NCBI GenBank assembly: GCA_900554705.1
Contig: USIH01000007.1
Coordinates: forward strand, 1-34,100
Origin: an uncultured Eubacteriales bacterium
GTDB taxonomy: Bacteria; Bacillota; Clostridia; Oscillospirales; Oscillospiraceae
Length of the DNA: 34,100 bases
Direction of reading: 5' to 3'
The position numbers and the translations under genes are program-made. Position 1 is the stretch's first letter. The number at the start of each line of letters is the position of its first letter. The notes beneath the pieces were generated by a model. It ran no database searches. It was given only the letters and a program-made list of their open reading frames with translations, and had not been told where the DNA came from. Positions 218-20,857 of this stretch are shown piece after piece.

Positions 218-254
218 TTGACGACTTGACGACTAAATGGGGGTGCGCGAACCT

Positions 255-1772: not shown

Positions 1773-2799
1773 ACTGAAACGATCGGGCAGCCTCCGCGAG
1801 CGGGGCGCAAAGGTCGCAAATCCCGTTCTTGCGATTCTGATCGCCTTTGCCATGGGCGGCCTGCTCGTTATGATCTCCGGCGAAAGCCCCTTTGCAACGT
1901 ATCAGGCGCTTCTGGAAGGCTCCTTCGGGAGCTGGACGGCGATCAAGAACACCGTGCGCTACGCCATTCCGATCCTGCTGCTGGCCTACTCCTTTTCCCT
2001 GTGTGATCGCTGCGGCTATTTTAACATCAGCCATGAGAGCCAGATCTACAGCGCGGTGCTCACCATGTCGGTGATCTCCGAGACGATGAAGGGTGCGCCG
2101 AGCTGGCTGCGGCTGTTGCTGATGATGGTCGGCGCGTGCCTTGCCGGTGCGGTCGCCTGTATCATTCCGGCGCTGGCGCGCTTCAAGCTGGGGATCAGTG
2201 AGGTTGTCGTGGGGGTTATGCTCAACTACCTGATGGCGTTTTTCGCAAAGCATATGATCGCCTTCACGTTCATCGCGGAAACGCAGTCCTCTTCCATCAT
2301 GTCGCTCCCCATCCCCGAGACCATCGGCGCGCTGACGATCCTGATCGGTGCGATCGTGGTCGTGGTGCTTTATCAGTTCGTGCTAAAAAAGACCATCCCG
2401 GGCTACCGGCTGACCGTGGTCGGCAAGAACCCGAAGTTTGCCGAGGCAAGCGGCCTGCCGTCCATGCGGATCCTGCTTAGCGCGGCGGCCATCGGCGGCA
2501 TCCTGACCGGTCTGTGCGCCATCGGCGAGATGCTGGGCTATTACCACATCATCTACGCGGATTTCGCTTCCAACATGGGCTTTAACGGTATGACGGCGGC
2601 TCTGATCGGCGGCGGCGGCGCGCTCGGTATGCTGTTAGGTGCGCTCCTGCTGGGCGCGCTGCGCAGCGGCTCGGTCCTGCTGACGGTGACGACCAACGTG
2701 CCGTCGGAGCTGGTGGACTGCGTGCAGGGCTTCGTTATGTTCTTTGCGACGATCAACCTGATCCGTCCGGAGCGCTGGAAGAGAAAAAAGGAGGGCTGA
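1762..2799 (+). CDS. BMP-type nucleoside ABC transporter permease (YufP-like)
   Basis: Integral membrane permease of about 345 residues with multiple hydrophobic segments, of the BPD_transp_2 family that includes ribose and nucleoside permeases. The family-typical stretch GYRLTVVGKNPKFAEASG lies in the middle loop, and a glycine-rich run (GFNGMTAALIGGGGALG) follows it. ATG at 1762 is preceded by GGGAGG at 1745-1750; a GTG at 1750 is a second choice. It overlaps the end of the ATPase gene, indicating translational coupling, and is followed after 2 bp by the second permease. Confidence 0.88.
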   Translation: MLAKLKRSGSLRERGAKVANPVLAILIAFAMGGLLVMISGESPFATYQALLEGSFGSWTAIKNTVRYAIPILLLAYSFSLCDRCGYFNISHESQIYSAVLTMSVISETMKGAPSWLRLLLMMVGACLAGAVACIIPALARFKLGISEVVVGVMLNYLMAFFAKHMIAFTFIAETQSSSIMSLPIPETIGALTILIGAIVVVVLYQFVLKKTIPGYRLTVVGKNPKFAEASGLPSMRILLSAAAIGGILTGLCAIGEMLGYYHIIYADFASNMGFNGMTAALIGGGGALGMLLGALLLGALRSGSVLLTVTTNVPSELVDCVQGFVMFFATINLIRPERWKRKKEG

Positions 2800-2801
2800 A
2801 A

Positions 2802-3743
2802 ATGGACATAGTTTCTGTTCTTGCGGTGGCGGTGCGCCACGCAGGCCCCATCCTGCTCGTTGCCATGGGCGGCCTGCTGGCAATGAAGGCAAACGTGTTT
2901 AACCTTGCCTTGGAGGGCTTTATGCTGATCGGCTGCTTTGCCTCCGTGGTCGGCACCTATTTCTTCCAAAACGTCTGGCTCGGCGTGCTCTGCGGCGTGC
3001 TTGCGAGCACCGCGTTCATCGCGATCTATGCCGCGTTTATCATTGAGCTGAAGGTGCAGCCGGTCATCTGCGCCATCTCGATCATCACGCTGGCAAGCGG
3101 ACTGACGCGCTATCTGCTCAACCCGATCTTCGGCGTCAGCGGGCGCTACGTTCTGCCGTCCGCTCTCGCGCTGCCGACCATCCGGCTGGCATGGCTGGAA
3201 AAGATCCCAGTGCTCGGGCCGATCCTCAACGGTCATTCGCTGCTGGTGTATCTGTCGCTGCTGCTTCCGTTTCTCATGTACTTCGTCCTGTATCACACGC
3301 GCTTCGGCCTGAATCTGCGCGCGGTGGGACTGAACGAGGACGCAGCGATCGCGGCGGGCGTCCATGCCACGAAGATCAAGTACACGGCGCTTCTGGTCAA
3401 CGGCGTGCTCTGCGGTCTGGGCGGAGCGACGCTCGCGCTCTCGGTGTATATGTTCAATGTAGGCATGACAAACGGACGCGGCTATACGGCGCTCGCGGCG
3501 ATCGTCCTTGCAGGAAACCATCCGCTCTGGACGCTTGCGACGTGCCTGCTGTTCGGCTTTGCCGAGTCGCTCGTCATCTCGCTTTCCACCTCCGGCATCT
3601 CCGCCTATCTGCTCGGAATGCTGCCCTACCTGCTTGCGCTCATCGCCGCGCTGCTGCCGCAGATCGTCCACCTGACGAGCCACACGCTGCGCCGCAGAAA
3701 GGCAGAGCGCCAGTTTATCGCGCAGCACACCGACCTTCCCTGA
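2802..3743 (+). CDS. BMP-type nucleoside ABC transporter permease (YufQ-like)
   Basis: Second, 313-residue permease of the importer, a paralogue of the gene before it. It is hydrophobic throughout, with the family loop GLNLRAVGLNEDAAIAAG and then GRGYTALAAIVLAGNHP. AAGGAGGG just before the ATG serves as ribosome binding site. The two permeases form the transmembrane channel of the transporter. A hairpin follows immediately and separates this gene from the lipoprotein gene. Confidence 0.88.
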   Translation: MDIVSVLAVAVRHAGPILLVAMGGLLAMKANVFNLALEGFMLIGCFASVVGTYFFQNVWLGVLCGVLASTAFIAIYAAFIIELKVQPVICAISIITLASGLTRYLLNPIFGVSGRYVLPSALALPTIRLAWLEKIPVLGPILNGHSLLVYLSLLLPFLMYFVLYHTRFGLNLRAVGLNEDAAIAAGVHATKIKYTALLVNGVLCGLGGATLALSVYMFNVGMTNGRGYTALAAIVLAGNHPLWTLATCLLFGFAESLVISLSTSGISAYLLGMLPYLLALIAALLPQIVHLTSHTLRRRKAERQFIAQHTDLP

Positions 3744-3766
3744 TTTTACCGGCATTGCCGATAAAA
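3744..3766 (+). promoter_or_regulatory. Intercistronic hairpin upstream of the lipoprotein gene
   Basis: TTTTA-C-CGGC (3744-3753) pairs with GCCG-A-TAAAA (3757-3766) around an ATT loop. There is one C/A mismatch and no proper T run. It more likely acts as a processing or partial attenuation structure than as a full terminator. Confidence 0.45.
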
Positions 3767-3792
3767 TAATAAATTTGAAAAGGAGCAACACC

Positions 3793-4800
3793 ATGAAAAT
3801 GAAAAAGATCGTATGCCTTCTGTTGGCTATCCTCCTGATCGCCAGTCTGGCGGCTTGCGGAAAAGACAAGAAAACCACCACCAAGACGACCCGCATTGCT
3901 TTTGTTTCCTATCAGGCGCTGGACTCCTCCGAATGGCTGCAAAATCTGGTCACCGGCCTGAAGGACTATGAAGCAAAGCATGATAACGTTGAGATCAAGT
4001 GCATCGAGGCGCTCAACGTTGACGAGTATGAACCGAAGGTTCGCGCCTGCTGCGAAGGCGGCTACAATATCGTTATCACGACCTATTCCGACATGACGCC
4101 GGCGCTGATCAAAGTCGCAAAGGACTTCCCCGATGTGAAGTTCGGCTCTCTGCAGGGCGAGATCGACAACATCGAGCAGTATAAGAACATTCAGGACTTC
4201 CGTTTGAACCGGACGCAGACGGCGTTCCTACAGGGCTGCGTCGCCGCTCTGATGACCAAGACCGGAAAGGTCGGCTTCATCGGCGGCGCTGTCGACGGCG
4301 GCATCAACGAGATCCTTGCCGGTTATCAGCAGGGCATCGCCTATGTGAACAACGGCACGCAGGACGTCGTCGCATATTGCAACTCCTTCACCGACCCGAC
4401 AATCGGCAAGGACTACGCGCTGCAGATGATCGCCGACGGCTGCGACATCGTTTTCGGTGCGGCAGGTGGCTCCAGCACGGGCTGCGCGCAGGCAGCGGAA
4501 GAAAAGGGAGTCATGTATGCCGCCTGTGACGTCCACTATCCGGATGCGGCGCCAAACGCGGAGCTGGGCAGCGCGATCAATCATTTTGAAGTCATGGTCA
4601 TCGCCTTCATCGACGACGCACTCAATGGCAACTACAAACCCGGCACCAGCAGAGAATACGGCATTGCCGAAGGCGCTGCCGACTATGAGTTCGCCTCCAA
4701 CGGCATTGTTCCGCAGGAAGTGAAGGATCAGGTCAACGCGATCGCCGAGAAGGTAAAGTCCGGCGAGATCGAGATCTCCACCACCCCGCTGCACTTCTGA
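3793..4800 (+). CDS. BMP family nucleoside-binding lipoprotein
   Basis: Extracellular substrate-binding lipoprotein of the Bmp/Med family, about 335 residues. The signal peptide ends in a lipobox LAAC with Cys22, followed by a Lys/Thr-rich linker. Family features include SYQALDSSEW near the start and GKVGFIGG, DGCDIVFGAAGG and GIAEGAADYEF further on. ATG at 3793 follows AAAAGGAGC at 3778-3786; the in-frame ATG at 3775 has no ribosome binding site. Unusually, it lies downstream of its ATPase and permeases and is flanked by hairpins on both sides, which may allow higher expression of the binding protein. Confidence 0.9.
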   Translation: MKMKKIVCLLLAILLIASLAACGKDKKTTTKTTRIAFVSYQALDSSEWLQNLVTGLKDYEAKHDNVEIKCIEALNVDEYEPKVRACCEGGYNIVITTYSDMTPALIKVAKDFPDVKFGSLQGEIDNIEQYKNIQDFRLNRTQTAFLQGCVAALMTKTGKVGFIGGAVDGGINEILAGYQQGIAYVNNGTQDVVAYCNSFTDPTIGKDYALQMIADGCDIVFGAAGGSSTGCAQAAEEKGVMYAACDVHYPDAAPNAELGSAINHFEVMVIAFIDDALNGNYKPGTSREYGIAEGAADYEFASNGIVPQEVKDQVNAIAEKVKSGEIEISTTPLHF

Positions 4801-4809
4801 TCACCGCTG

Positions 4810-4841
4810 CGCCGCCGCGGGTGCCCGCACCCGCGGCGGCG
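4810..4841 (+). promoter_or_regulatory. 14-bp GC hairpin after the lipoprotein gene
   Basis: CGCCGCCGCGGGTG (4810-4823) pairs perfectly with 4828-4841 around a CCCG loop. It is followed by AAAAGAAAGG, not by a T run. It sits between stop codon and next ribosome binding site, as expected for an mRNA 3'-end stabiliser or a leaky terminator. Confidence 0.55.
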
Positions 4842-4862
4842 GGAAAAGAAAGGAGAAATACC

Positions 4863-5906
4863 ATGTACAGTCTACACGATCGAATTTTAGGAAGCCTTGT
4901 CACCGCCGGCATGGGCGACGCGCTCGGCGTCCCCAGCGAAGCATACAGCCGCGCGGAGATCCTTCAGGAGTACGGTGGGCCGATTGACCATTTTATCGGC
5001 CCCGGCGCGAACGTCTACGGCGCGGGCAACCTGCCTGCCGAGGTGACGGACGACTCCTCGCAGATGTATGAGATGGCAAAGGCCGTGATCGCCACGCGCG
5101 GCGAACTGACCGTGCAGGCGGCAGCCGACGCTTTGATCAACTGGACGAAATCCTATCCCAAGTACTACCCGCGCAACGCAGGCCCCACGATGTCCCTCTG
5201 GGCGAAGGACTATCTGGCAGGCGGCGACCCGCTGGAGCTGGCGAAGGTCGGCAAGGCGTACGGCCGCGGTTTCTCCAACGGCTGTGCGATGCGCATTGCG
5301 CCCGCCGCGCTCTGCAATCCCGGCGATCTGGACGGCGCGATCCGCACCGCGATTACGATGACGAGCGTTTCGCACGGCACACAGCACGCCTACTCCGGCG
5401 CCTGCGCCATTGCCTGTGCCATCGCCGAGGCGCTGCGCGAGGATTCTCAGATCTCCTCCGTCCTCAAGGCCGCGGTTTACGGCGCGAAGGAGGGCGAGCG
5501 GATCGGAAACCGCGAGGCACGCCAGAGCTACGGTCCCCGCGTGCTTCCGCGCCTGATGCAGGCCATTGACTGCGTCTACCGCGCCGACAACGCCGAGCAG
5601 GCCTCCATCCTCCTGGAAGAGACGGTCGGATGCAGCGGCGACATTCAGCCCACTGTGGGGATTGCCGTCGGCCTCTTCGCCGCCAACGACGGCGATCCGC
5701 TTGCAACGATCAAGGCAGCGGCCAACATCGGCGGCGACACGGATACGTTCGCCTGCATCGCCGGCATGATCGCCGGTGCATATCGAGGCTTCCATGTGCT
5801 GCCCGCCGACTGGTACGCGCAGTTTAAGGAAGCCAACCCGATGCTCGACTTTGAGTGGGCGGCAAAAGAATTGGCGGAGATCGCGCAGGCACGCGCAAAG
5901 AAATAA
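4863..5906 (+). CDS. ADP-ribosylglycohydrolase (DraG/ARH) family protein
   Basis: A 347-residue all-alpha hydrolase of the ADP-ribosylglycohydrolase fold. The metal-binding signatures are visible: GMGDALGVPSE near the N-terminus, TDDSSQM about 45 residues later, and GGDTDT near the C-terminus. ATG at 4863 follows AAAGGAGA. Family members cleave N- or O-glycosidic bonds to ribose. In this operon, between a nucleoside importer and a PfkB kinase, a role in cleaving an imported nucleoside or ribosylated compound fits better than protein de-ADP-ribosylation; this is inferred from context only. Confidence 0.85.
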   Translation: MYSLHDRILGSLVTAGMGDALGVPSEAYSRAEILQEYGGPIDHFIGPGANVYGAGNLPAEVTDDSSQMYEMAKAVIATRGELTVQAAADALINWTKSYPKYYPRNAGPTMSLWAKDYLAGGDPLELAKVGKAYGRGFSNGCAMRIAPAALCNPGDLDGAIRTAITMTSVSHGTQHAYSGACAIACAIAEALREDSQISSVLKAAVYGAKEGERIGNREARQSYGPRVLPRLMQAIDCVYRADNAEQASILLEETVGCSGDIQPTVGIAVGLFAANDGDPLATIKAAANIGGDTDTFACIAGMIAGAYRGFHVLPADWYAQFKEANPMLDFEWAAKELAEIAQARAKK

Positions 5907-5908
5907 AC

Positions 5909-6931
5909 ATGAAAACACATGACATTTTGCTTCTTTATCCGTCCACCGTGGACGTAATCCTCGAAATGGAGGGCACGTTCCCCATCTTGGGCGGTACCTC
6001 ACGGCAGGTGATCGACTTGCAAATGGAGCCGGGCGGTGAGGGCAACATCCTCCTTGCCTTCAACCGCATGGGCGGGAACATCCTGCCCACCGGCCCCATT
6101 GGCGAGGATCATTACGCGGCCTTCCTGCGCGGTGTTATGAAAAAGGAACAGGTCGACCTGAGCGCGATGCGCGTTGTTTCCGGCTTCCAGCCGCCCATCG
6201 CGCACTGTATCATTGACGCCGAGGGCACGCACAGCTTCGTCAGCTCCTTGGCCTCCGCCGACTACGCGCAGGAGGAGGAAGTGATCGCACAGCTTGAGCA
6301 GTGCCGCGGTATGTGCCTGAGCGGCTACTACCTGACCGATCCGGAGGAGCCGTTTTACGGTCTGTCTCTCCGCCTCGCCGCACACGCGGCGGAGCTTGGA
6401 ATGCCGGTCTTCTTCGACCCCGGTCCGCTTGCCGACAAGATATTGCCGGAGGCGATGCAGCAGGTCTATCGGGACTGCGCCGTCCTCTGCATGAACGACA
6501 CCGAGGCGCGCATTTTAAGCGGCGCGGAGGAACCGGAGCGGGCGGCGGAGCGGCTTTGCAGCCGGACGCAGGCGCTTGTGATCGTCAAGGCCGGTGGGCG
6601 CGGCTGCTATGTACGGCGGGGAACGAACGCCGGAAAATGGTACGGCGGTTTCCGCGTGCGTGCTGTCGATAGCATGGGCGCAGGCGACTCCTTCTTGGGC
6701 GCGCTGATGTTCGCATGGATCAGCGGCGGCGATCAGGACACCTGCATCACGCTTGCCAACGCAGCCGGAGCGGTAAAGGTCTCCAAATACGGAACCGGCA
6801 CCAAAGTGCCTACTTTTGGTGAAATGGTTGCAATTTTGGAAGAAAACGGTTATAATGTTCCAGCAGAATGTAAGAATGACAGATCGTTTGCAAAATTCAG
6901 AGTGAAGAAGGCAAGCGCGTCAAAGGAGTGA
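5909..6931 (+). CDS. PfkB family sugar/nucleoside kinase
   Basis: A 340-residue ribokinase-like kinase. The C-terminal catalytic motif DSMGAGDSFLGAL carries the GAGD with the base Asp, and an N-terminal GGEGNILLAFNRMGG matches the substrate lid region. ATG at 5909 lies 2 bp after the previous stop, so translation is probably coupled. It likely phosphorylates the nucleoside or the ribose released by the upstream hydrolase; which one cannot be told from sequence. The gene ends 6 bp before the GntR regulator. Confidence 0.85.
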   Translation: MKTHDILLLYPSTVDVILEMEGTFPILGGTSRQVIDLQMEPGGEGNILLAFNRMGGNILPTGPIGEDHYAAFLRGVMKKEQVDLSAMRVVSGFQPPIAHCIIDAEGTHSFVSSLASADYAQEEEVIAQLEQCRGMCLSGYYLTDPEEPFYGLSLRLAAHAAELGMPVFFDPGPLADKILPEAMQQVYRDCAVLCMNDTEARILSGAEEPERAAERLCSRTQALVIVKAGGRGCYVRRGTNAGKWYGGFRVRAVDSMGAGDSFLGALMFAWISGGDQDTCITLANAAGAVKVSKYGTGTKVPTFGEMVAILEENGYNVPAECKNDRSFAKFRVKKASASKE

Positions 6932-6937
6932 AGCGGT

Positions 6938-7684
6938 ATGGTGAGCAGGAACCCCGGGGGAATGGCGTTGTATCTTCAAATCGCCGAAGAATTGAAGCTG
7001 GATCTTGCAAAGCTGAAATACGGTGAGCAGATTCCGACGGAGACGGAACTGATGGAGCGTTACCACGTCAGCCGAGGGACTGTGCGTCAGGCGATCAACG
7101 GCCTTGTCGGCAGCGGCTACCTTTATAAGGTGCAGGGCAAGGGGACGTTCCGTGGCGGCGGTCTGCCGAGTCAGCATGGCTACAACCGCCTGCCGTCTTT
7201 TTCACGCAGCGTCCTTCTGGCCGGCCAGACGCCGTCGATCTCCGACGTTTGCTTGGAGACGGTGTGTGCCGATGCAGTTGTTGCGAGCTTTCTCTGTGTG
7301 CCGATCGGCGAGGAGGTATGGAAGCTGTCGCGCAACCGCGGCGTGCAGGGCGGGGAGGTTATCTGCTATGCCGAGGCCTACATTCCCAAGGATGTCCTGC
7401 CTGATCTGAAGGCGGAGGATCTGGAACTTTCCATCATCCATATGATCATTCAGAAATTTCATCTGAGAGTATCTTCCACGACCAACCAGCTTCGCGCGGA
7501 GATCATCGGCGATACATACGGCAAGCGTTTCCACATTGATCCGCACGCCGCTGCGCTCATATCCAACTACGTGATGCACAACGAGGTGGGACGTCCCATT
7601 GTCTACGACTGGTCGATCAACTGGGACGGCGAGTTTAACTACACGCTTGAGTGCATCTACCCACCGGAGAATTATACGAAATAA
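6938..7684 (+). CDS. GntR family regulator with UTRA ligand domain
   Basis: A 248-residue regulator of the HutC subfamily. Residues about 5-70 form the winged helix (YGEQIPTETELMERYHVS, then SRGTVRQAINGL). The rest fits the UTRA small-molecule-binding domain, ending in VYDWSINWDGEFNYTLE. AAAGGAG at 6922-6928 precedes the ATG. As last gene of the transport/catabolism cluster it probably senses a pathway intermediate and controls the operon, perhaps at 204-217. Confidence 0.87.
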   Translation: MVSRNPGGMALYLQIAEELKLDLAKLKYGEQIPTETELMERYHVSRGTVRQAINGLVGSGYLYKVQGKGTFRGGGLPSQHGYNRLPSFSRSVLLAGQTPSISDVCLETVCADAVVASFLCVPIGEEVWKLSRNRGVQGGEVICYAEAYIPKDVLPDLKAEDLELSIIHMIIQKFHLRVSSTTNQLRAEIIGDTYGKRFHIDPHAAALISNYVMHNEVGRPIVYDWSINWDGEFNYTLECIYPPENYTK

Positions 7685-7771: not shown

Positions 7772-8314
7772 TCAGCTTTCCATCTGTCGCCCGAGGAAAC
7801 CGGCGACGGTCTGCGCCAGCTTCTGCTCCGACTCGGTGGGCGCGGCGTCGTCCTCCGCCATCAGCAGCATGACGCAGCCCATCAGGTCGCCCTCCGAAAT
7901 GATGGGGGCGGCCACGCCGAGGTGGTAACGTTCGACCGTCTCCGCCGGACGCAGGCGCGCCTCACCCGTGCGATAGCGGTAGCTCTTGCGCTGCTCCATG
8001 AGCTGCTCCAGCTCGACGGAGTTGTGCTTCTCCAGAAGCTCGCGCTTCGGCGCGCCTGCGACGGCGATGATCGCGTCCCGATCCGCTACGGCGGCAATGT
8101 GGCCGGTGTTCTTGCCGATCGACTCGCAGATCTGCGCGGCAAAATCCTGCAAGTCTCCCATAGGCGAATACTTTTTGAAGATTACTTCGCCATCCTTCTC
8201 CGTATAGATCTCCAGCGGGTCGCCCTCGCGGATGCGCAGTGTGCGGCGGATCTCTTTGGGAATGACGACCCGACCGAGGTCGTCGATCCTCCGGACAATT
8301 CCAGTTGCTTTCAT
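7772..8314 (-). CDS. spoVT: Stage V sporulation protein T
   Basis: 180-residue DNA-binding regulator of late forespore gene expression. Residues 1-52 form an AbrB-like swapped-hairpin domain (MKATGIVRRIDDLGRVVIPK, then EIRRTLRIREGDPLEIY), and the remainder fits the GAF-like C-terminal domain (ISEGDLMGCVMLLMAEDD). Length and layout match SpoVT of spore formers. AGAGGGAGA precedes the ATG at 8314. Its presence argues for a sporulating or recently sporulating lineage. It is convergent with the nucleoside operon. Confidence 0.93.
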   Translation of the reverse strand: MKATGIVRRIDDLGRVVIPKEIRRTLRIREGDPLEIYTEKDGEVIFKKYSPMGDLQDFAAQICESIGKNTGHIAAVADRDAIIAVAGAPKRELLEKHNSVELEQLMEQRKSYRYRTGEARLRPAETVERYHLGVAAPIISEGDLMGCVMLLMAEDDAAPTESEQKLAQTVAGFLGRQMES

Positions 8315-8450
8315 AAAATCTCCCTCTTCTTACAAAGTGTACGGGGCTATTGTTTGCCGAATTTGGGAGAATATGCGCGTGTGCGCTGCCGTGACGGCAA
8401 TTTGGCACACGAGCGCGGCGGCTGCCGAAAAACGTGCGGCAAGATTTTTG

Positions 8451-8479
8451 TTGCATTCGCGTGTATGTCCCGTTATAAT
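8451..8479 (+). promoter_or_regulatory. Promoter of the TetR-type gene
   Basis: TTGCAT at 8451-8456 and TATAAT at 8474-8479 are 17 bp apart, directly before a palindrome and the GTG start at 8514. Confidence 0.8.
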
Positions 8480-8481
8480 AC

Positions 8482-8495
8482 TGGTGTATACACCA
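8482..8495. promoter_or_regulatory. Candidate TetR operator
   Basis: TGGTGTATACACCA is a perfect 14-bp palindrome lying 3 bp downstream of the -10 box, over the expected transcription start. Its position suggests autorepression by the TetR-type protein encoded immediately downstream. Confidence 0.65.
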
Positions 8496-8513
8496 ACGAA
8501 GGAGGAGATCGCC

Positions 8514-9233
8514 GTGGCACTGACGAGCGCAAGCCTGCCCGCGAAGAAGCGGATCCTGACCGTCTGTGTGAAGCTGTTTTTGGAAAAGGGCTATAAGAAA
8601 ACGACACTGGCGGAGATCATCGAAAAGGCGGAGGTCTCCTATAGCTCATTTCAGAATATTTTTCGTGCCAAGGACGGCGTGCTGACGGAACTGACGAAGT
8701 TTATGTTTTCCAACCAGTTCACCGCCGCGCGCGGCACGGCAGGACAGGAACTGCCGCCCATCTTCGTCTATGCGGTCGAAACGGCGATCCAGATGACGCT
8801 GACGGAGCTGAACGAAAACCTGCGGGAAATTTACATCGAGGCCTACACGCAGAAGGAATCGTCCGAATATATCTTTCGTGAGACGGCAAACGAGCTGTAT
8901 CAGATCTTTGGTCAATATCAGCCGGAGCTGAGCCGGCGTGATTTTTACGAGATGGAGATCGGCTCTGCCAGCATTATGCGCGGCTACATGGCACACCCGT
9001 GTGACGAAGACCTGACGCTGGAGAAGAAGCTGCGGCTGTTTCTCACCATGAGCCTGCGTGCCTACCATGTTCCGGAGGACACGCTGCAAGAGACGATCCG
9101 CTTTGTCGAGCGCCTTGACATCCGCTCGATCTCCGAACGGGTGATGCACAAGCTGTTTGAAGCGCTGGCGATGCACTTTGCGTTTTCCCTGCAAGGGATA
9201 GACGGAAAAGACGACGGGGCGGAACAAGGCTGA
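8514..9233 (+). CDS. TetR/AcrR family transcriptional regulator
   Basis: 239-residue regulator with a GTG start preceded by AAGGAGGAG at 8499-8507. Residues about 10-55 form the TetR helix-turn-helix (KRILTVCVKLFLEKGYKKTT, then EIIEKAEVSYSSFQNIFRAKD); the rest is an alpha-helical ligand or dimer domain without recognisable specificity. The gene stands alone between spoVT and a terminator, with its own promoter and palindromic operator. No transporter or enzyme target is adjacent, so the regulon is unknown. Confidence 0.85.
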   Translation: MALTSASLPAKKRILTVCVKLFLEKGYKKTTLAEIIEKAEVSYSSFQNIFRAKDGVLTELTKFMFSNQFTAARGTAGQELPPIFVYAVETAIQMTLTELNENLREIYIEAYTQKESSEYIFRETANELYQIFGQYQPELSRRDFYEMEIGSASIMRGYMAHPCDEDLTLEKKLRLFLTMSLRAYHVPEDTLQETIRFVERLDIRSISERVMHKLFEALAMHFAFSLQGIDGKDDGAEQG

Positions 9234-9309
9234 CTTGCTCCGCTGCTGCCGAGGCGGCCGGACTTCGGACGCGAAAGTGCAGCTCCCACAGGAATGGAAT
9301 AACCAAAAA

Positions 9310-9355
9310 CCCCGATGCATTCAGAGCTTTCTCTGAATGCATCGGGGGCTGTCTT
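9310..9355 (+). terminator. Terminator after the TetR-type gene
   Basis: A perfect 17-bp stem (9310-9326 with 9331-9347, loop CTTT) is followed by GCTGTCTTTT. It separates the TetR-type gene from the recombinase gene. Confidence 0.8.
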
Positions 9356-9366
9356 TTATTCTGCGT

Positions 9367-9394
9367 TTAAGACATAATATAGATACTTGGAGGA
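9367..9394 (+). repeat. Third, degenerate recombinase site upstream of the recombinase gene
   Basis: ACATAATATAGAT at 9372-9384 is identical to the left arm and core of the inverted site at 10511-10538 and in the same orientation, while the right arm is not conserved. It ends in the ribosome binding site (GGAGGA, 9389-9394) of the recombinase gene, so recombinase binding here could repress its own synthesis. Confidence 0.55.
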
Positions 9395-9402
9395 AGATCA
9401 AA

Positions 9403-10245
9403 ATGAAGGGACGATTGGTCACGGCAAAGGTGATCGCCGCATTCAGGGAGCACCTCATCTTGGAGGAGCGCAGCGCGGCGACGGTCGAAAAATATGTCCG
9501 CGACGTGCGGGCGTTTGCCGCTTACGCGCGGGACGGCTCCATTACAAAAGAGGTCGTGATCGCATATAAAAAGTATTTGCAGGAGAATTACAGCACGCGA
9601 AGCGTCAATTCAATGCTTGCGAGTATCAACAGCCTCTTTTCGCGCCTTGGATGGGACGATCTGAAGGTGAAGCAGCTGAAGCTCCAGCAGCAGGTTTTCC
9701 GTCCCGAAGAAAAGGAGCTGACGAAGGCGGAATACACACGGCTCTGTCGAGCGGCGGAGCACAAGCGCAACATGCGCCTCAGCCTTATCCTGCAAACGAT
9801 CTGCGGCACGGGCATCCGCATAAGTGAGCTGCAATATATCACCGTGGAAGCGGTGAAGCGCGGCGAAGCGGTCGTGCATTGCAAGGCAAAGACACGGCCG
9901 GTGTTTATCGTCCGAGAACTGAAACAAAAACTGCTCTGCTATGCGGCGGAGCAAGGCATAAAAAGCGGAGTGATCTTTGTCACGCGCACGGGAAAGCCGG
10001 TCAGTCGGGTCAATGTCTGGCGCGAGATGAAAGCGCTGTGCGCCGAGGCCGATGTCGACCCGCAAAAGGTGTTCCCGCACAATCTGCGGCATTTGTTTGC
10101 AAGCGTGTTTTACGGCATCGAAAAGGATATTGCCAAGCTTGCCGATATTCTCGGTCACAGCAGCATCAACACAACGAGAATCTATATCATTTCCACCGGA
10201 AGCGAACATCGCCGCCATATGGAAAATATGCGGCTGATCCTATAA
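9403..10245 (+). CDS. Tyrosine recombinase, likely a site-specific DNA invertase
   Basis: 280-residue Xer/phage-integrase family recombinase. Residues about 10-85 form the SAM-like core-binding domain. The catalytic domain holds Arg139 (GTGIRISEL), a beta-hairpin Lys near 161-163, His226 and Arg229 (HNLRH), His252 (LGHSS) and the nucleophile Tyr261, so it looks active. ATG at 9403 follows TTGGAGGA; an in-frame ATG at 9337 lies inside the preceding terminator. No excisionase or element cargo is adjacent. Instead two inverted sites follow within 20-295 bp, as in promoter-inversion switches. Confidence 0.9.
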   Translation: MKGRLVTAKVIAAFREHLILEERSAATVEKYVRDVRAFAAYARDGSITKEVVIAYKKYLQENYSTRSVNSMLASINSLFSRLGWDDLKVKQLKLQQQVFRPEEKELTKAEYTRLCRAAEHKRNMRLSLILQTICGTGIRISELQYITVEAVKRGEAVVHCKAKTRPVFIVRELKQKLLCYAAEQGIKSGVIFVTRTGKPVSRVNVWREMKALCAEADVDPQKVFPHNLRHLFASVFYGIEKDIAKLADILGHSSINTTRIYIISTGSEHRRHMENMRLIL

Positions 10246-10264
10246 AAAAACGCCGAAACCGACG

Positions 10265-10292
10265 GAGAAACATAATCTATATTATGTTGCAA
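10265..10292 (-). repeat. Recombination site 1 (inverted copy)
   Basis: Arms GAGAAACATAAT and ATTATGTTGCAA flank a CTAT core. Bases 10269-10292 (24 nt) are the exact reverse complement of 10511-10534. It lies 20 bp after the recombinase stop codon. The asymmetric core sets the orientation opposite to site 2. Confidence 0.8.
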
Positions 10293-10510
10293 AAAGCGCG
10301 GACAAAAACGTGCGCAACCATACCTACACGAAAAATGGTAACACAAGACACACTGTTTGTAAAGCCTTTTTACGTCCAAAATGTGAAATTGTTCCTATTT
10401 CAGCATGAGAATTTAAGTTTAATCGTTCATTTCGTTGAAAGCAAGCGCAAGGCTTGCTATTTTTCGCTTTTCTATGAGGCGATTTGTTGTACTCCTGTGT
10501 CCCTTTCCAT
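10293..10510. other. Putative invertible promoter segment
   Basis: 218 bp between two inverted recombinase sites, AT-richer than its neighbours and without a convincing gene. It contains a leftward promoter candidate (10335-10363) and, facing right, a hairpin GCAAGC-GCAAG-GCTTGC (10440-10456) followed by TATTTTTCGCTTTT that resembles a terminator. In this assembly the promoter points away from the genes on the right, which I read as the OFF state. Inversion would turn it towards 10583-13006. Confidence 0.65.
10335..10363 (-). promoter_or_regulatory. Leftward promoter inside the invertible segment
   Basis: On the minus strand TTTACA (10363-10358) and TACCAT (10340-10335) are separated by 17 bp. 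A second weaker match on the same strand reads TTGTCC with TATAGA formed by site 1 itself. Both point toward the recombinase in the present orientation. Confidence 0.5.
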
Positions 10511-10538
10511 TTGCAACATAATATAGATTATGTTGCAA
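10511..10538 (+). repeat. Recombination site 2
   Basis: A 28-bp site with perfect 12-bp arms, TTGCAACATAAT (10511-10522) and ATTATGTTGCAA (10527-10538), and core ATAG. It is inverted relative to site 1 and directly upstream of a ribosome binding site and short ORF. Confidence 0.8.
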
Positions 10539-10582
10539 AGCCGTATCAAAGCATCCAATCACCTGTTTAGGAGGAAGTCGGT

Positions 10583-10684
10583 ATGACAGTCGAGGAGAGA
10601 ACAAAAGTCAAGCGTTCAAAGGCCAAAGGAGTCTTAATGTCGGCAGTGGCCATCCTGATGCGCCCTCTCATGCCGCCTGCGTGA
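10583..10684 (+). CDS. Small ORF downstream of the switch (33 aa)
   Basis: ATG at 10583 is preceded by TTTAGGAGGA, a strong ribosome binding site. The product is Lys/Arg-rich at the N-terminus (MTVEERTKVKRSKAKG) and hydrophobic after it, then stops. It could be a leader peptide, a real small protein or the 5' stub of a broken gene. I do not recognise it. Its value is that it is the first translated sequence after the invertible segment. Confidence 0.4.
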   Translation: MTVEERTKVKRSKAKGVLMSAVAILMRPLMPPA

Positions 10685-10791
10685 CCTCTGCAATGCGCGG
10701 GCACGCGTCTGACAAAATGCCTGCGGCATAGAACAATAAAAAATGATCGAATTTGCACGGAAGATTTATGAAATAGAAAGTGAGGCACAAA

Positions 10792-11142
10792 ATGGCTAAT
10801 TTTTTCAAGGGACTTCTGAGAGCGAACACGACGATCTACGGTGATCTCGAGGGAGCGATGACGAAACTCAAGAACGGGAGACTCGCGATCGCGATCGAAA
10901 AGGACAAGAGCAAAGAAGAAAAGTGCATCGCGTGGATCGTTGGACAGAAGGACATCGAACTGTCCAAGGGCAACGTGAAGAAGGTCGAATTTGTTGATCA
11001 TGCCGTTGTGAATAATATTTCAAGTGACGCCGGAAAGTCGGCTGACGTTTCCATTTACAGAATTGAAATGACAGACGGCACGACGGGCACGCTTCGCCTG
11101 AAAACTTCTTTGGAAGAACGGGTTTTGCGGCTGATCCGGTAA
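10792..11142 (+). CDS. Hypothetical protein (116 aa)
   Basis: A soluble, charged protein without signal peptide or membrane segment. It begins MANFFKGLLRANTTIYGDLE and ends in a likely beta-rich part (IYRIEMTDGTTGTLRLK). ATG at 10792 with GTGAGG at 10780-10785 is the best start. I do not recognise the family. A 52-bp gap separates it from the zinc-ribbon gene in the same direction, so the two are likely co-transcribed and, with the next gene, may be under control of the upstream invertible segment. Confidence 0.65.
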   Translation: MANFFKGLLRANTTIYGDLEGAMTKLKNGRLAIAIEKDKSKEEKCIAWIVGQKDIELSKGNVKKVEFVDHAVVNNISSDAGKSADVSIYRIEMTDGTTGTLRLKTSLEERVLRLIR

Positions 11143-11194
11143 AATTGCAGAGGCCGTGCAAATTCGATCATGATCATAAGACAAGGAGGGCACT

Positions 11195-12505
11195 ATGGCA
11201 ATTGATATAAAGACCGTTATCTGCCCGCAATGCGGTTCGACCGATGTCGATATGACTTCCGATACGCAGGGCGTTTGCAATTCGTGCGGTGCCAAGTTTA
11301 CCGTACAGCAGAGAATTGAAACGCAAAATGTGTACAATGAGGTCCACGTTCATACGGAGGCCGAGCCGGTGGCGGAAGAGGAAGAACCGTATAATAAGGC
11401 GATCATTACGCCCGAGTATTCGCCCGATTATTTTGTAAGGAAGGCATGGATCAAGTTAGCCGAGGAAGACGTCCCGTTTGAAGTATTTGATCAGGATTTT
11501 GGCGAGGTTTCTCAAACGGAGCACGAGGTGCTGGTTGACAGAAAGTCGGCGGACATGAGATATTGGGCAAGCATCGGTTATGATCGGCAGGAACCTTATA
11601 TCGACTATGAGGATTACTACGAGGACGAGCCTTATATCGCCTATGAAACACAGCGCAATTCGGTCACAAACCAGTACGAGGAAAGACAGGTAACAAAGTA
11701 CCGGAAGGTAAAAAAGCAGCGGCAGGTCACAAAATACCGGACGGTCACAGATTGGAGCAGTCAAAACGGCAGACATAGCGCCGAATCGTTCGCTTTTGTT
11801 GAAAATCTGCCGGGGCAGCATCTCGACGAAGCCGCATTTATGAAAAGCTTTCAGTATGTGGGGAAGAGCGCCTTTGCCCAGCCGTCTGCCGAAAAGGCGG
11901 CGCAGATGCGGGTGACGGATGAAGCGTATCAGACGGCCATGGCCGAGCACGAGCGTAATTTTTCCAATGCGCTGTGCCGCGCGCTTCCCGGGGATCATTA
12001 CAAGGATCTGGACTATGAGTACACGATCACAAAATCTGTGACGGCACTGTGCGCGTGCCAGGAGTATGAGGCGACGCTGTCCTATAATGGAAAGACCTAT
12101 TGCAAGCGCGCCTTCCCGTTTGGCGGGTTGGAGATCAGGGGAGACCGGATCATAAATGAGGAAAGCCTTACCAGCATTACAAAGCGGAAGGAAGATTCCG
12201 TTTTTGACATGGCGTGGGATAAGACGAAGCGGCTCTCTTTTATCACGATCGGCGCCTTGGCACTTTCCATCATCGTATCCTTGGCGATCCGTGTAACGGC
12301 GCTCGTGATCATCACATTCGTTATCGCAGCGGGGCTGTTCGTTTTCAATACGCTTACCGAGAAGAAGACGACGGAAGCGATCTACGCAAGGGTAAAGGCC
12401 GAGATCAACGATTACACCAATAATTACAAAACCAAACAGCGCGAGCTGCTCGACCGCAAGCTCACGTCGCTGGGGTACGAGCCTGCGAGAGCGGACGAAT
12501 TATAA
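11195..12505 (+). CDS. Zinc-ribbon membrane protein of unknown function
   Basis: 436 residues. Cys10, Cys13, Cys28 and Cys31 (CPQC and CNSC) form an N-terminal zinc ribbon, followed by an acidic linker. A central tyrosine-rich stretch contains two copies of QVTKYR (ERQVTKYRKV and QRQVTKYRTV), and two hydrophobic helices lie at about 345-390. The C-terminus is a charged helix. AAGGAGGG precedes the ATG. The layout suggests a membrane-anchored protein with both ends in the cytoplasm; no known family is recognised. It is the largest gene downstream of the putative invertible promoter. Confidence 0.72.
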   Translation: MAIDIKTVICPQCGSTDVDMTSDTQGVCNSCGAKFTVQQRIETQNVYNEVHVHTEAEPVAEEEEPYNKAIITPEYSPDYFVRKAWIKLAEEDVPFEVFDQDFGEVSQTEHEVLVDRKSADMRYWASIGYDRQEPYIDYEDYYEDEPYIAYETQRNSVTNQYEERQVTKYRKVKKQRQVTKYRTVTDWSSQNGRHSAESFAFVENLPGQHLDEAAFMKSFQYVGKSAFAQPSAEKAAQMRVTDEAYQTAMAEHERNFSNALCRALPGDHYKDLDYEYTITKSVTALCACQEYEATLSYNGKTYCKRAFPFGGLEIRGDRIINEESLTSITKRKEDSVFDMAWDKTKRLSFITIGALALSIIVSLAIRVTALVIITFVIAAGLFVFNTLTEKKTTEAIYARVKAEINDYTNNYKTKQRELLDRKLTSLGYEPARADEL

Positions 12506-12520
12506 GGGGAGGCGAAGAAA

Positions 12521-13006
12521 GTGGAGAGCATCGAACGTGTAAAGAAAATTCGCATCATCCTTTTGGTGATCGCCTGTATCGCCTGCTTTGTGGGGGCATC
12601 CAAGTCCCGAGCGGCCGAAAAAAAGGCCGCAACGGATGTTTCCAAAATCAAGGTGCAGATCGTCGATAAAGAATGCTACCATAAGGCAGCCGAATCGGAG
12701 TATCGCAGCGGGTACTATTACGTTGATCTCACCTATAAGATCACCAACCGCACCAAGGCCACTTGGAGCTATCTGAATATCACGACATATGTGTACGACA
12801 AGGACGGAAAATCGCTGGGAACCATCACATCCGAATTTGGCTCAACGTATGGAACGTCCGATTTGAAACTCAAGGCGGGCGGTACGGTGACGAAGTCCTC
12901 CAGCTTTAAGTCAAATCAGCCGGACGATTTCTTCGCGACAATGTATGTATCCGATCTGTCCGATTTGGTATTTGAGTCGGAGGTCACATACGGCAGGCAT
13001 AAGTGA
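12521..13006 (+). CDS. Membrane-anchored extracytoplasmic protein, FxLYD-like
   Basis: 161 residues from a GTG at 12521 preceded by AAGGGGAGG. One hydrophobic segment (about residues 9-26) acts as signal anchor. The rest has the beta-sandwich pattern of FxLYD-type domains (TWSYLNITTYVYDKDGKSLG, then DLKLKAGGTVTKSSSF). Such domains occur on surface proteins of Bacillota. It follows the zinc-ribbon gene by 15 bp and is followed by a terminator, so it is the last gene of that unit. The fold assignment is moderately sure; the function is unknown. Confidence 0.68.
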   Translation: MESIERVKKIRIILLVIACIACFVGASKSRAAEKKAATDVSKIKVQIVDKECYHKAAESEYRSGYYYVDLTYKITNRTKATWSYLNITTYVYDKDGKSLGTITSEFGSTYGTSDLKLKAGGTVTKSSSFKSNQPDDFFATMYVSDLSDLVFESEVTYGRHK

Positions 13007-13081
13007 TCGCTGCTTGCAGCGCAGCCGATACATGGTTTTCCAGAGAAGGGAAAAGACAGCGCGGACAAAACCAAAATAGAG

Positions 13082-13140
13082 AAAGCAGCGGAGCGTGGCG
13101 ATGGGGCAGTTTGCCTCAACGCCGCGCTCCGCTGCTTTTT
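13082..13140 (+). terminator. Terminator closing the zinc-ribbon gene unit
   Basis: AAAGCAGCGGAGCG (13082-13095) pairs with CGCTCCGCTGCTTT (13125-13138), with a further paired region inside, followed by a T run. It separates the unknown trio from the CRISPR-cas promoter. Confidence 0.85.
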
Positions 13141-13198
13141 TTGAACGAGAAAATGCAATCCTTCAATGTAAAATCATTCAAGAGATAAGAATAAATGT

Positions 13199-13227
13199 TT
13201 GACAATTTTGTGTGAACAAGATACAAT
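13199..13227 (+). promoter_or_regulatory. cas operon promoter
   Basis: Consensus TTGACA at 13199-13204 and TACAAT at 13222-13227 with a 17-bp spacer. The predicted transcript starts near 13234, giving a leader of roughly 120 nt before cas3. Confidence 0.85.
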
Positions 13228-13270
13228 ACAAATGGTGAAAAAATGACAAAATTTGCGATAAAGATGAAAA

Positions 13271-13299
13271 TGTGTCACTCGCAGAAGACGAGTGACACA
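13271..13299. promoter_or_regulatory. Inverted repeat in the cas3 leader
   Basis: TGTGTCACTCG (13271-13281) and CGAGTGACACA (13289-13299) are perfect 11-bp arms around CAGAAGA. It lies about 40 nt into the predicted mRNA leader and about 60 nt before the chosen cas3 start. It could be an operator for a repressor or an RNA hairpin; there is no T run. Confidence 0.6.
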
Positions 13300-13356
13300 C
13301 GGTTCACACAACGGGGGAACGGCGGGATGAAACAAACACGCAGCATGGAGGAAGCG

Positions 13357-15558
13357 ATGGAATACTTTGCAAAATCTGAAAATTCACAGGGGCACCAAGA
13401 AACCGTAAAGGAGCACTTGCAGCAGGTGGCGGCGCTTGCCTTGACATATGGGGAACCTATGGGGATGAGAGATGAGGCAGAGCTGGTAGGGCAGATGCAT
13501 GACTTTGGAAAGTACTCCGAGGCATTTCGGGGAGTGCTTGCCGGAAAGTGCGTGCGAAGAGACCATGCTTTGGGCGGTGCGTGCTTTTTAGAGTGCTGCT
13601 ATAGAGGAAGTATGGCCAGCCGCCCTGTCGTGGAGGCGGTCAACGGGCATCACGATGGCCTTGTGGCATACGACATGATAAGGGGCGAGCTGCACGCCAT
13701 TGCGGATGAGAAAAAGGTTGCGCACGGAAACGACGGCAAAACGCCGACGATCGAAAACTTCGCGCAGCTACAAGAGGCAATCGCCGCATTTCGAAGGGAT
13801 TTTCCTGATTTCAGACCGCCCAGGCTTTCCGCCCCGCCGAGCGGTGAATTGGAATCTATGCTGTACACCCGAATGCTGTTTTCCGCTTTGGTGGACGCGG
13901 ACTACACAGCCTCCGCGCTGAATGATGACGGTACATATCTGGAGCGCTCGGAGGATCATCATTTTGATCCGAGTTTGCTTCTGGAAAAGCTATATGCTTA
14001 TCGTGACGAGATCAAGCACAATTCCACTGCGGATCGAACGCTGAATGCGTATCGGGATCAGGTTTTCGTGCAGTGCGGGAAAATGGGGGATGAACCCGAG
14101 GGGCTTTATACGTTAACGGCACCCACCGGCACAGGAAAAACTTTGGCGCTGCTGCACTTTGCCCTGCGGCATTGCCTGAAGCACGGGAAAAGTCGGATCA
14201 TTATTGTGCTTCCGTTCCTGACACTGGCCGAGCAAAGCGCCGACACTTATGCAAAAATCATCCCCAATGTGCTCGTCGACCACAGTCAAAGCGACCTGCC
14301 GGAGGAAGCCCGCGAGCTGGCCGCCAGATGGAGCGCGCCGGTCATTATCACCACTTCGGTCCGCTTTTTTGAGGCGCTGTTTTCGGATCGTCCTACAGTC
14401 TGCCGGAAGCTCCACAACATCGCGGACAGCGTTGTGATATTCGACGAGGCGCAGAGCCTGCCCGCCGCGCTGACTTCCGCGACGCTTCGCGCGGTGAATG
14501 AACTGTGCGGCCGGTATCACACCACCATGGTGTTCTCCACGGCGACACAGCCGGACTTTGCCGCGCGAAAGGATCTCAACTGGGCACCGCGAGAGATCCT
14601 GCCGGAGCACAAAAAGATGTTTGAGACCCTGCGGCGGGTGGACGTACAATGGCGCCTTGGGAGGGAAACGCCGCTGGAGACCATTGCGGAGGAAATGACT
14701 CAATATGATAGCGTCTGCGTCATTGTCAATCTGCGCCGCCATGCGCGGCAGATCGCCAATGCCCTATTGCAGCGCTGCCCGGCGGAGACGGTGTACTTCC
14801 TTACCACGGACTTATGTCCGGCGCACCGAAGAGAGCAGATCGCGACCATTTGCCGGAGACTGAAACAGGGACTGCCCTGTCGTGTGGTGGCGACACAGTG
14901 TATTGAGGCCGGAGTAGATTTGGACTTTGGGGTGATGTACCGCGTCTTGGCACCGCTGGATGCAATCATTCAGGCCGCCGGACGCTGCAACCGAAACGGC
15001 CGCGGCATGGGGCAAGTGATCGTCTTCCGTCCAGAGGACAGTCGAATGCCCTATCCGGACAGTTGGTACAACAATGCGGCTGTCACCGTGCAGGAGATGC
15101 GGCCGCCTTTTTCCATTCACAATCCGGAGAAGATCCGAGAATACTACCGGAGGTTGTTTGACGGAACTACGGACAAGCCGGAGCTGAGAAAAGCGATCGA
15201 GGCAAGGTCGTTTGAACAAACGGCGGAGCAGTACCAGCTGATTGCCAACACCGGCGCGCAGGTCATTGTGCCATATGCCAAAGAAAAAGAGCTGTATGAA
15301 CGGGTCACAGGAGAACTCCGAAAACAGGGGATCACCGGCGCGCTACGGAAGGAGGCAGCGCCCATCACCGTGACCTGTTTTGCAAAGAACTTGGAAGTGT
15401 ATGCGGAAGAGCTCCCTTTTGCCCGTCGGGGCAGGGAACGCTCTGCGGATCAGGCGCACAGCAATGTTTACTTGCTTCGCCCACAGCATCAGGAGCAGTA
15501 CTGCGCGCTGTTGGGGCTGTATCTGCCCCAAGAGGAGCGGTTCGATTTCATATTCTGA
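13357..15558 (+). CDS. cas3: CRISPR-associated helicase/nuclease Cas3 (type I-C)
   Basis: 733-residue Cas3 that unwinds and degrades DNA marked by Cascade. The N-terminal HD nuclease shows His48-Asp49 (MHDFGKY), then RRDHALGG and NGHHDG. The SF2 helicase follows: Walker A APTGTGKT at about 255-262, DEAQ near 363, STATQP after it and the late motif QAAGRCNRNG. ATG at 13357 has GGAGGA directly upstream and gives the usual N-terminus (MEYFAKSENSQGH); an in-frame ATG at 13327 lacks a good ribosome binding site. It is the first gene of the operon and appears intact. Confidence 0.93.
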   Translation: MEYFAKSENSQGHQETVKEHLQQVAALALTYGEPMGMRDEAELVGQMHDFGKYSEAFRGVLAGKCVRRDHALGGACFLECCYRGSMASRPVVEAVNGHHDGLVAYDMIRGELHAIADEKKVAHGNDGKTPTIENFAQLQEAIAAFRRDFPDFRPPRLSAPPSGELESMLYTRMLFSALVDADYTASALNDDGTYLERSEDHHFDPSLLLEKLYAYRDEIKHNSTADRTLNAYRDQVFVQCGKMGDEPEGLYTLTAPTGTGKTLALLHFALRHCLKHGKSRIIIVLPFLTLAEQSADTYAKIIPNVLVDHSQSDLPEEARELAARWSAPVIITTSVRFFEALFSDRPTVCRKLHNIADSVVIFDEAQSLPAALTSATLRAVNELCGRYHTTMVFSTATQPDFAARKDLNWAPREILPEHKKMFETLRRVDVQWRLGRETPLETIAEEMTQYDSVCVIVNLRRHARQIANALLQRCPAETVYFLTTDLCPAHRREQIATICRRLKQGLPCRVVATQCIEAGVDLDFGVMYRVLAPLDAIIQAAGRCNRNGRGMGQVIVFRPEDSRMPYPDSWYNNAAVTVQEMRPPFSIHNPEKIREYYRRLFDGTTDKPELRKAIEARSFEQTAEQYQLIANTGAQVIVPYAKEKELYERVTGELRKQGITGALRKEAAPITVTCFAKNLEVYAEELPFARRGRERSADQAHSNVYLLRPQHQEQYCALLGLYLPQEERFDFIF

Positions 15559-15616
15559 GTACATAGCCGCCGTCAGGCAAGCTGTGCGCGATTTCGCCTT
15601 TGAAGCAAAAAATGAT

Positions 15617-15647
15617 TTGACAAGCAGCAACTGTATAACAATATAAC
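15617..15647 (+). promoter_or_regulatory. Weak promoter candidate in the cas3-cas5c gap
   Basis: TTGACA at 15617-15622 and TATAAC at 15642-15647, with a long 19-bp spacer. A transcript from here would begin at about 15654, right at the hairpin preceding the repeat-like handle. Confidence 0.35.
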
Positions 15648-15650
15648 TGA

Positions 15651-15750
15651 CAGCTGATTTTCAACAAACGCTCGACTTGCGGTTGGCAGACAATCGGCTG
15701 ATGAGTAGAAACAGTTAATATTTGGAGGGCTCTGCTTCTAAGGAAGACAG
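15651..15750 (+). ncRNA. Candidate crRNA-like RNA element in the cas operon
   Basis: CAGCTGATT (15651-15659) pairs with AATCGGCTG (15692-15700, one G-T) and inner bases also pair (CGC with GCG). One base later comes TGAGTAGAAAC (15702-15712), which matches 10 of the last 11 bases of the CRISPR repeat (TGAGTAGAAAT), the part that forms the 5' handle of a type I-C crRNA. A 30-40-nt spacer-like tail could follow, up to the ribosome binding site of cas5c. The element fills an otherwise empty 220-bp gap. Alternatives are a decayed repeat or chance. Confidence 0.45.
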
Positions 15751-15778
15751 GGCAGCAAATTATGGAGGTGAACATTAT

Positions 15779-16429
15779 TTGAAAGAAATCGCAATCGAAG
15801 TCTGGGGTGATTTTGCCTGCTTCTCCATGCCTTACGCAAAGGTGGAGCGGCTGACCTATCCCTTTCCCACGCCATCCGCTGCAAGGGGTATCCTGTCGGC
15901 CATCTATCTCAAGCCGAAGGAGTTCTATTGGCGTGTCAATCGCATTGAGGTGCTCAATCCCATTCGTTACATCAGCTTCAAACGCAATGAGGTCAAGTGC
16001 ACCGTCGGGACAGAGCCGATTTTTGCGGAGGAGGAGCGAACGCAGCGACAGACGGTAGCGTTGCAGGATGTCCGCTACCGGATCGTGGCATCCATCATTC
16101 CGCGCCCCGCCTTTGCGGGGAAAGAGCCGCAACTGTATGAGCAGGCGCTGCGGCGCATTCGCGGGGGAAAATGCTATTACCAATGTTCCTTAGGGCTAAA
16201 AGAGTTTGTATGTTATTTTGAGGAAAGCAACGGAGTCCGACAGCCGATCCGTCAATCCATGGACGCGGGTCTGATGCTCTATGACCTGTTTACACCGGAG
16301 GATGTAGAGGTTACGAAAAAGGTAAAGGTTCATATGGCCCTGTTCCATGCGGTGATGGAGGACGGCGTTATTTTAGTTCCTCCTTACGACAGTCCGGAGG
16401 TTCTGAAAGGGGGCGACGGCACGTGCTGA
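15779..16429 (+). CDS. cas5c: Cas5c (Cas5d), pre-crRNA processing subunit
   Basis: 216-residue RAMP protein. In type I-C it replaces Cas6: it cuts the repeat hairpin and stays bound to the 5' handle. The family start KEIAIEVWGDFACFSMPYAK and the glycine-rich region PFPTPSAARGILSAIYLKP are clear. The only reasonable start is TTG at 15779, with GGAGG at 15764-15768; an in-frame ATG at 15722 lies far upstream. It overlaps cas8c by 7 bp. It was assigned by these motifs and by its position between cas3 and cas8c; no cas6 is present in the operon. Confidence 0.9.
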   Translation: MKEIAIEVWGDFACFSMPYAKVERLTYPFPTPSAARGILSAIYLKPKEFYWRVNRIEVLNPIRYISFKRNEVKCTVGTEPIFAEEERTQRQTVALQDVRYRIVASIIPRPAFAGKEPQLYEQALRRIRGGKCYYQCSLGLKEFVCYFEESNGVRQPIRQSMDAGLMLYDLFTPEDVEVTKKVKVHMALFHAVMEDGVILVPPYDSPEVLKGGDGTC

Positions 16430-18168: not shown

Positions 18169-18182
18169 GAGGAGGATATACG

Positions 18183-20852: not shown

Positions 20853-20857
20853 TGCGT

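Follow-up and report, generated by a model that had tools for sequence, protein, structure and literature searches.

Inversion of a short DNA segment upstream of an operon by an Xer-type recombinase has been described for the RecV switches of C. difficile (cwpV and flagellar), in which the segment is 150-200 bp long (PMC2784873; PMC5386303), and one recombinase of this organism serves several dissimilar repeats (PMC5386303). In the fim system of E. coli, as outlined in PMC2784873, an invertible promoter lies beside the genes of two recombinases, and termination near a recombinase gene is orientation-dependent, that of fimE being Rho-dependent. XerC/XerD and the single-recombinase Xer systems act on a palindrome of 28 nt built around a central hexanucleotide, dif being present once per chromosome (PMC2731167; PMC9765430). 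In a defined gut community, inverton group 139 has been linked to tyrosine recombinase (invertase) group 35; 32 of the 33 invertons of this group are found in Clostridia, and shifts in the orientation of its members were followed in reads (PMC11892184; Microbiome 2025).

In the window, that is, the whole stretch of 34,100 nt analysed here, inverted recombination sites flank a short segment and adjoin a recombinase gene, which is one of the features by which an inverton is recognized. A tyrosine recombinase near an inverton, in Clostridia, is also what characterizes group 139, and, judging from this description, the family of the window probably corresponds to inverton group 139 with invertase group 35. 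The novelty therefore lies in the anatomy of the cassette and in its cargo: the site anatomy, the terminator at which the promoter would be parked and the cargo are new here, and the terminator, the matching of cores and the zinc-ribbon cargo appear to go beyond the description of group 139 given in PMC11892184. A literature search, with supplements and most subscription journals outside its range, found no printed description of these sites besides the group 139 work. With the RecV switches the locus shares a tyrosine recombinase, inverted repeats and a segment 5' of an operon. However, the RecV site, AAGTT(A/G)CTAT(A/T)TTACAAAAAA in the flagellar repeat (PMC5386303, compared by eye), is unlike ACATAATNNNNATTATGT here, which sets the two apart, and cwpV, as presented in PMC2784873, is under terminator control with its promoter outside the segment, unlike what is predicted for the present cassette. 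The fim switch employs two recombinases and ends fimE transcription through Rho; the present cassette has a single recombinase, and the terminator predicted for it is intrinsic and encoded on the opposite strand. The half-site TTATGTT is common to the family site and E. coli dif (by eye, PMC2731167), whereas the window has two inverted symmetric sites, with cores that vary in the family, and a recombinase that scores below the cut-offs of the XerC, XerD and XerA models.

Recombinase, sites and putative target unit of the window

The locus, whose features are collected in Table 1, probably works as a switch in which the recombinase flips a 228-bp segment and a predicted promoter in the segment drives the unit at 10583-13006 in one orientation and points away from it in the other, the copy in the window being predicted OFF. 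An earlier reading made from the letters of the window (the sequence-only reading) had likewise proposed a recombinase-controlled invertible promoter, and this remains the best account in view of matched cores, inverted segments in relatives and promoter-like sites that recur at much the same distance from the sites they face.

Table 1. Positions of the features of the proposed switch in the window
Feature	Position	Strand	Basis
Terminator-like hairpin 5' of the recombinase gene	9310..9347	predicted on both strands	17-bp perfect stem
Tyrosine recombinase, XerA-like, 280 aa	9403..10245	+	PF00589, 85.6 bits
Predicted minus-strand terminator	10244..10264	-	hairpin of -5.7 kcal/mol, then seven T
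Site 1, core CTAT, inverted partner of site 2	10269..10293	+	25-nt arm, 100% complementary
Predicted invertible segment, 228 nt between the dyads	10288..10515		sites; homologous segments inverted in relatives
Predicted promoter TTTACA-17-TACCAT, pointing left (OFF)	10335..10363	-	family profile 7.2 vs 1.2
Predicted terminator inside the segment	10440..10458	+	-11.2 kcal/mol, z -3.2
Site 2, core ATAG, perfect 13-nt dyad arms	10510..10539	+	sequence, inverted-repeat search
Small ORF, 33 aa, first of the putative target unit	10583..10684	+	behind GGAGGA
116-aa ORF, no family	10792..11142	+	domain-model searches
436-aa zinc-ribbon protein, two long C-terminal helices, hydrophobic stretch	11195..12505	+	zinc-ribbon matches below cut-off
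161-aa protein, N-terminal hydrophobic stretch, weak FxLYD match	12521..13006	+	NF038353, 19.8 bits (cut-off 23)
Inverted repeat then T run, terminator-like by eye, past the target unit	13082..13138	+	27-nt arms, 89% complementary

The recombinase contains an N-terminal SAM-like domain beside the PF00589 domain. Its best NCBIfam model is XerA (NF040815), with 132.1 bits under a cut-off of 220, and the XerC and XerD equivalog models give 108.5 and 104.6 bits against cut-offs of ~330 and ~335. By sequence, the closest relative with a solved structure is 4a8e, which was deposited as XerC-like. R139, K163, H226, R229, H252 and Y261, presumably the catalytic residues, are each invariant in 49/49 family members, which together with the PF00589 match upholds the earlier description of the recombinase as intact. 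Among the matches listed, 14 homologues are at least 95% identical (95-98%), all of them full length. A 13-nt half-site with the core of site 2, ACATAATATAGAT (9372-9384), lies 5' of the recombinase start, near the likely promoter. Autoregulation of the recombinase through this half-site was considered and rejected, the half-site being present solely in the window (1/60 loci).

The dyad of site 1 reads ACATAAT-CTAT-ATTATGT (10270-10287) and that of site 2 ACATAAT-ATAG-ATTATGT (10516-10533), the latter within the full site TTTGCAACATAAT-ATAG-ATTATGTTGCAAA; the core of site 1 is inverted and its outer arm is imperfect. The two inverted sites and their opposite cores had been pointed out before, and both are seen in the sequence, with small corrections of length: the exact inverted repeat extends over 25 nt per arm instead of 24 (the arm of site 2 being 10510-10534, and the arms 216 nt apart), and the perfect arms of site 2 over 13 nt instead of 12. 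Site 1 follows the stop codon of the recombinase gene by 24 nt, and inverted site 2 comes another 246 nt on. The 18-mer, with up to three mismatches, occurs at two places in 34.1 kb, which are the two sites, with 0.01 expected by chance. As had been noted, the enclosed DNA lacks a convincing gene, the sole frame in 10288-10515 (TTG start, 9879-10526) also crossing the recombinase gene.

The putative target unit keeps the extent assigned to it by the sequence-only reading, with four ORFs rather than two. In the 436-aa protein, the ribbon CPQCG...CxxCG is conserved, and strands of 49 and 43 residues form a very long hairpin in its structural model (pLDDT 90). A fold search with this model found nothing in the PDB at an E value of 0.001 or below; the TM-score does not exceed 0.13 in any of the 50 matches listed, which include long-hairpin proteins of pores and tails. 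A PDB sequence search with the same protein gave no match, nor did a search of 8800-13300 against Rfam. This protein has 154 homologues, all named hypothetical protein among the 120 listed, and matches to it, some of them weak, are found in 6/300 family genomes; in one of the genomes (G212), matches to the recombinase and to the 436-aa protein are both present, on different contigs. Searches by tblastn with the 116-, 436- and 161-aa proteins and the TetR protein of the window gave no match in 65 loci. The operon may have a role in the membrane or envelope, a guess prompted by the zinc ribbon, the hydrophobic stretches and the FxLYD match. Within the putative target unit, the 116-aa ORF is bracketed by an 18-nt perfect inverted repeat (10743-10760/11154-11171), and the enclosed piece may have been inserted or may be another invertible segment.

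Sites, cores and orientation in related loci

Searching species genomes for the recombinase yielded 41 loci, some of them partial, and in an even sample of 300 genomes from the family to which the closest match belongs, 43 contained a recombinase match at 1e-70 or better. With the window added and one viral locus (L057) dropped, 87 distinct recombinase matches, distant ones included, were compared. At least two sites, with one mismatch at most allowed across the 14 positions of the arms, are found at 49/87 of them. Sites of this kind are indeed present in related genomes, where the sequence-only reading had suggested looking for them. A degenerate site pattern searched in genomes of family loci gave 19/19, 4/6, 8/9 and 3/4, and a control pattern 0 in each. 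In five more distant loci (L018, L021, L022, L026 and L031), both arms are altered jointly to CCATAAT...ATTATGC, which suggests that enzyme and site change together.

Throughout the family the arms are constant and the 4-nt core is locus-specific, with 36 distinct first cores, none of which is palindromic. The first core of a locus is the reverse complement of its last one in 47/47 testable loci, compared with a mean of 1.8 and a maximum of 9 in 10,000 shuffles of partners; L013 and L149, in which the only two copies are direct ones and lie at contig ends, were left out of this count. When all later sites are compared with the first one, there is one mismatch overall, the middle site of L134 with another core, and one extra direct copy of the site is present in L014 and L098. 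Strand exchange by a tyrosine recombinase over a spacer that must match would leave matching cores. Here, recombinase monomers would bind the ATTATGT-type half-sites, and strands would be exchanged across the 6-nt spacer TNNNNA, necessarily identical in both sites. Eleven genomes have at least two exact site pairs, and in 10 of them the cores differ among all pairs, a distinction that is not significant because possible cores are so many. An address code, in which each switch within a genome has a core of its own, was rejected as a strict rule, since both pairs of G218 are AGAC/GTCT. Single sites with the core of a pair occur in G007, G014 and G242; in G242 this core is TGTC, and one such site adjoins a recombinase of its own.

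The orientation of the segment can be compared in five pairs of homologous switches with matching downstream DNA, a count that excludes segment matches for which the downstream DNA does not match or was not loaded, and it is opposite in three of the five. The recombinases of L034 (Clostridium clostridioforme) and L035 (Enterocloster bolteae) are 95% identical and the flanks colinear, and the 342-nt segment aligns with 90% identity only when reversed. The recombinases of L128 and L137 are 72 and 70% identical to that of the window and 86% to each other; their 242-nt segment aligns (77%) only in reverse, with the direction changing at the sites and the downstream DNA ~95% identical, and both cores have changed together (CAGT/ACTG vs CTAT/ATAG). 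The third inverted pair is L032/L082, with a shorter segment match (59 nt), while the orientation is the same within L127/L131 and within L133/L134. A fixed orientation of the segment, which had been named as evidence that would speak against an invertible promoter, is not what the three inverted pairs show.

Predicted promoter, terminators and state of the window copy

Sigma-70-like sites with a -10 element ending 28-56 nt from the faced site were searched for in 47 segments. The best hexamer score lies on the leftward strand in 31 and on the rightward strand in 15, and the window is tied with a score of 10 on both strands. The two strands differ by at least two points in 39/47 segments, 30 of them pointing towards the recombinase (left) and nine towards the cargo (right). 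The combined shuffle test for promoter-like sites gives 3e-39, a value to be read with the distance range having been set after the data were seen and the shuffles preserving base composition only. In L016 and L017, the best promoter-like sites lie nearer to the repeat, beyond the chosen range. A family profile built from 20 clade segments labels 20/20 correctly when each is left out, a test that is partly circular because the training segments received their labels from the hexamer score. The two scoring rules conflict in L160 (hexamers plus, profile minus), and the profile is below zero on both strands in L006.

Between the recombinase stop codon and site 1, a single rule finds a minus-strand terminator in 23/33 loci with room for one, 10/33 failing, and the same rule on the plus strand finds none; the shuffle expectation is 3.3. 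There is no room for it in 14 loci, including that of L001, the closest relative. While the switch is OFF, transcription from the leftward promoter would meet this terminator before the recombinase gene and yield an RNA of ~80 nt; we infer that the role of the terminator is to halt this transcript ahead of an antisense run through the recombinase gene. In the window, the hairpin within the segment points in the opposite direction, so that transcripts reading out of the recombinase gene should likewise end there as the segment now lies, and would be kept from entering the operon. In the flipped segment, transcription would start ~110 nt ahead of the first ORF.

Which of the two orientations the window represents depends on two promoter candidates, each with TG before the -10: the leftward one of Table 1 and a rightward one on the plus strand, TTGAAA-17-TATTTT (10435-10463). 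It might be that the segment inverts as proposed but that the window copy is ON, with the rightward candidate driving the operon now, and the tied hexamer scores and the TG on both strands agree with this. The family profile, however, gives 7.2 on the minus strand at a distance of 47 nt, the common one (shuffle p 0.003), against 1.2 (p 0.024) for the plus-strand candidate, which lies 52 nt from its site, the common distance being 46-49, and overlaps the predicted hairpin with its T run. Alignment of the whole segment does not decide on the orientation (572 vs 590). The leader past the leftward -10 resembles by eye that of L001, which scores ON with hexamers (TGTAGGTATG in the window vs TGTATAGGTATG). 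Because the profile favours the minus strand, the plus candidate overlaps a terminator and the leader resembles that of L001, the window copy is likely OFF, with its promoter pointing left, and an ON copy is unlikely. The OFF state, which the sequence-only reading had also named, is in accord with the profile but stands less firmly than the switch itself in view of the tied hexamers.

Two further readings would deny the window a working switch of this kind. In one, a switch that once worked is now locked in one orientation in the lineage of the window; the imperfect outer arm of site 1 and the -10 TACCAT, which is weak and weaker than in most clade relatives, would fit such a relic. Yet the recombinase is intact with all invariant residues kept, its close homologues among the matches listed are full length, the cores match exactly, and the outer flanks of L128 and L137 are also unequal although their orientations differ, so that a relic is quite improbable. 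Still less probable is an Xer/dif-type module for dimer resolution, integration of mobile DNA or use by the host XerC/XerD, to which the promoter would be incidental. The sites do resemble dif with its 6-nt centre, and the exact 18-mer is present in 24 viral contig stretches, once each, one of these viral contigs having a distant recombinase next to it (L057). None of the 24 carries a site pair, however, and what is seen in the family is inverted pairs 170-420 nt apart beside a dedicated recombinase that scores below the XerC/XerD cut-offs, several pairs per genome, and a predicted promoter at constant geometry. An invertible promoter thus remains the preferred reading.

Cargo of the family and neighbouring DNA

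The downstream units vary by locus, as judged from Pfam matches. Collagen, SLH, cohesin or dockerin proteins are found in L003, L155, L157 and L017, and a Wzz protein in L015. Flagellar-like units are found by reading behind the switches of L034 (switch at 8001-9805) and L035 (switch at 8001-9803), where a basal-body-rod match lies just below cut-off. Other loci carry an Eco57I-type methylase with a T5orf172/ResIII protein (L001), a metallophosphatase with an SMC-like ATPase (L156), a histidine kinase with a response regulator (L167), a diguanylate cyclase (L171), a TIR-domain protein (L165), or an SPFH protein with a zinc ribbon (L158). Zinc-ribbon proteins are also found in L161, L163 and L145; the target genes of the window had been described before as not known to be switched, but a zinc-ribbon protein as target is less isolated than this suggests, as such genes recur as cargo of the same family.

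A wider proposal, to which we give about even chances, is that the recombinase gene and ~300 bp, made up of an insulating terminator, the paired sites and the promoter, form a portable switch of gut Clostridia, placed before unrelated operons (zinc-ribbon/SPFH, TIR, restriction-modification and signalling, beyond surface antigens). In such a switch, the OFF promoter would be parked at the shielding terminator, and the cores would drift jointly through recombining. Such cargo would widen the range of functions under supposed bet-hedging to restriction-modification, TIR, diguanylate cyclase, two-component and zinc-ribbon proteins, the last being represented in the window. The signature ACATAATNNNNATTATGT, occurring twice in inverse orientation, should make such switches and their predicted state findable by sequence in uncultured gut bacteria, and the compactness of a cassette of site, recombinase and promoter would make the specificity for site and core testable in E. 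coli.

Upstream of the switch, 237-7684 encodes an ABC transporter ATPase, a Bmp-type lipoprotein, an ADP-ribosylglycohydrolase, a PfkB kinase and a GntR/UTRA regulator, and looks like an operon for nucleoside uptake and salvage. Directly past the target unit begins an operon of cas genes (13243-21148; Cas3-like, Cas7 and Cas1 by Pfam), which is followed at ~21430-23100 by repetitive minus-strand frames resembling a CRISPR array. A DNA/RNA non-specific endonuclease with a lipoprotein-like start is encoded on the minus strand at 26893-27756.
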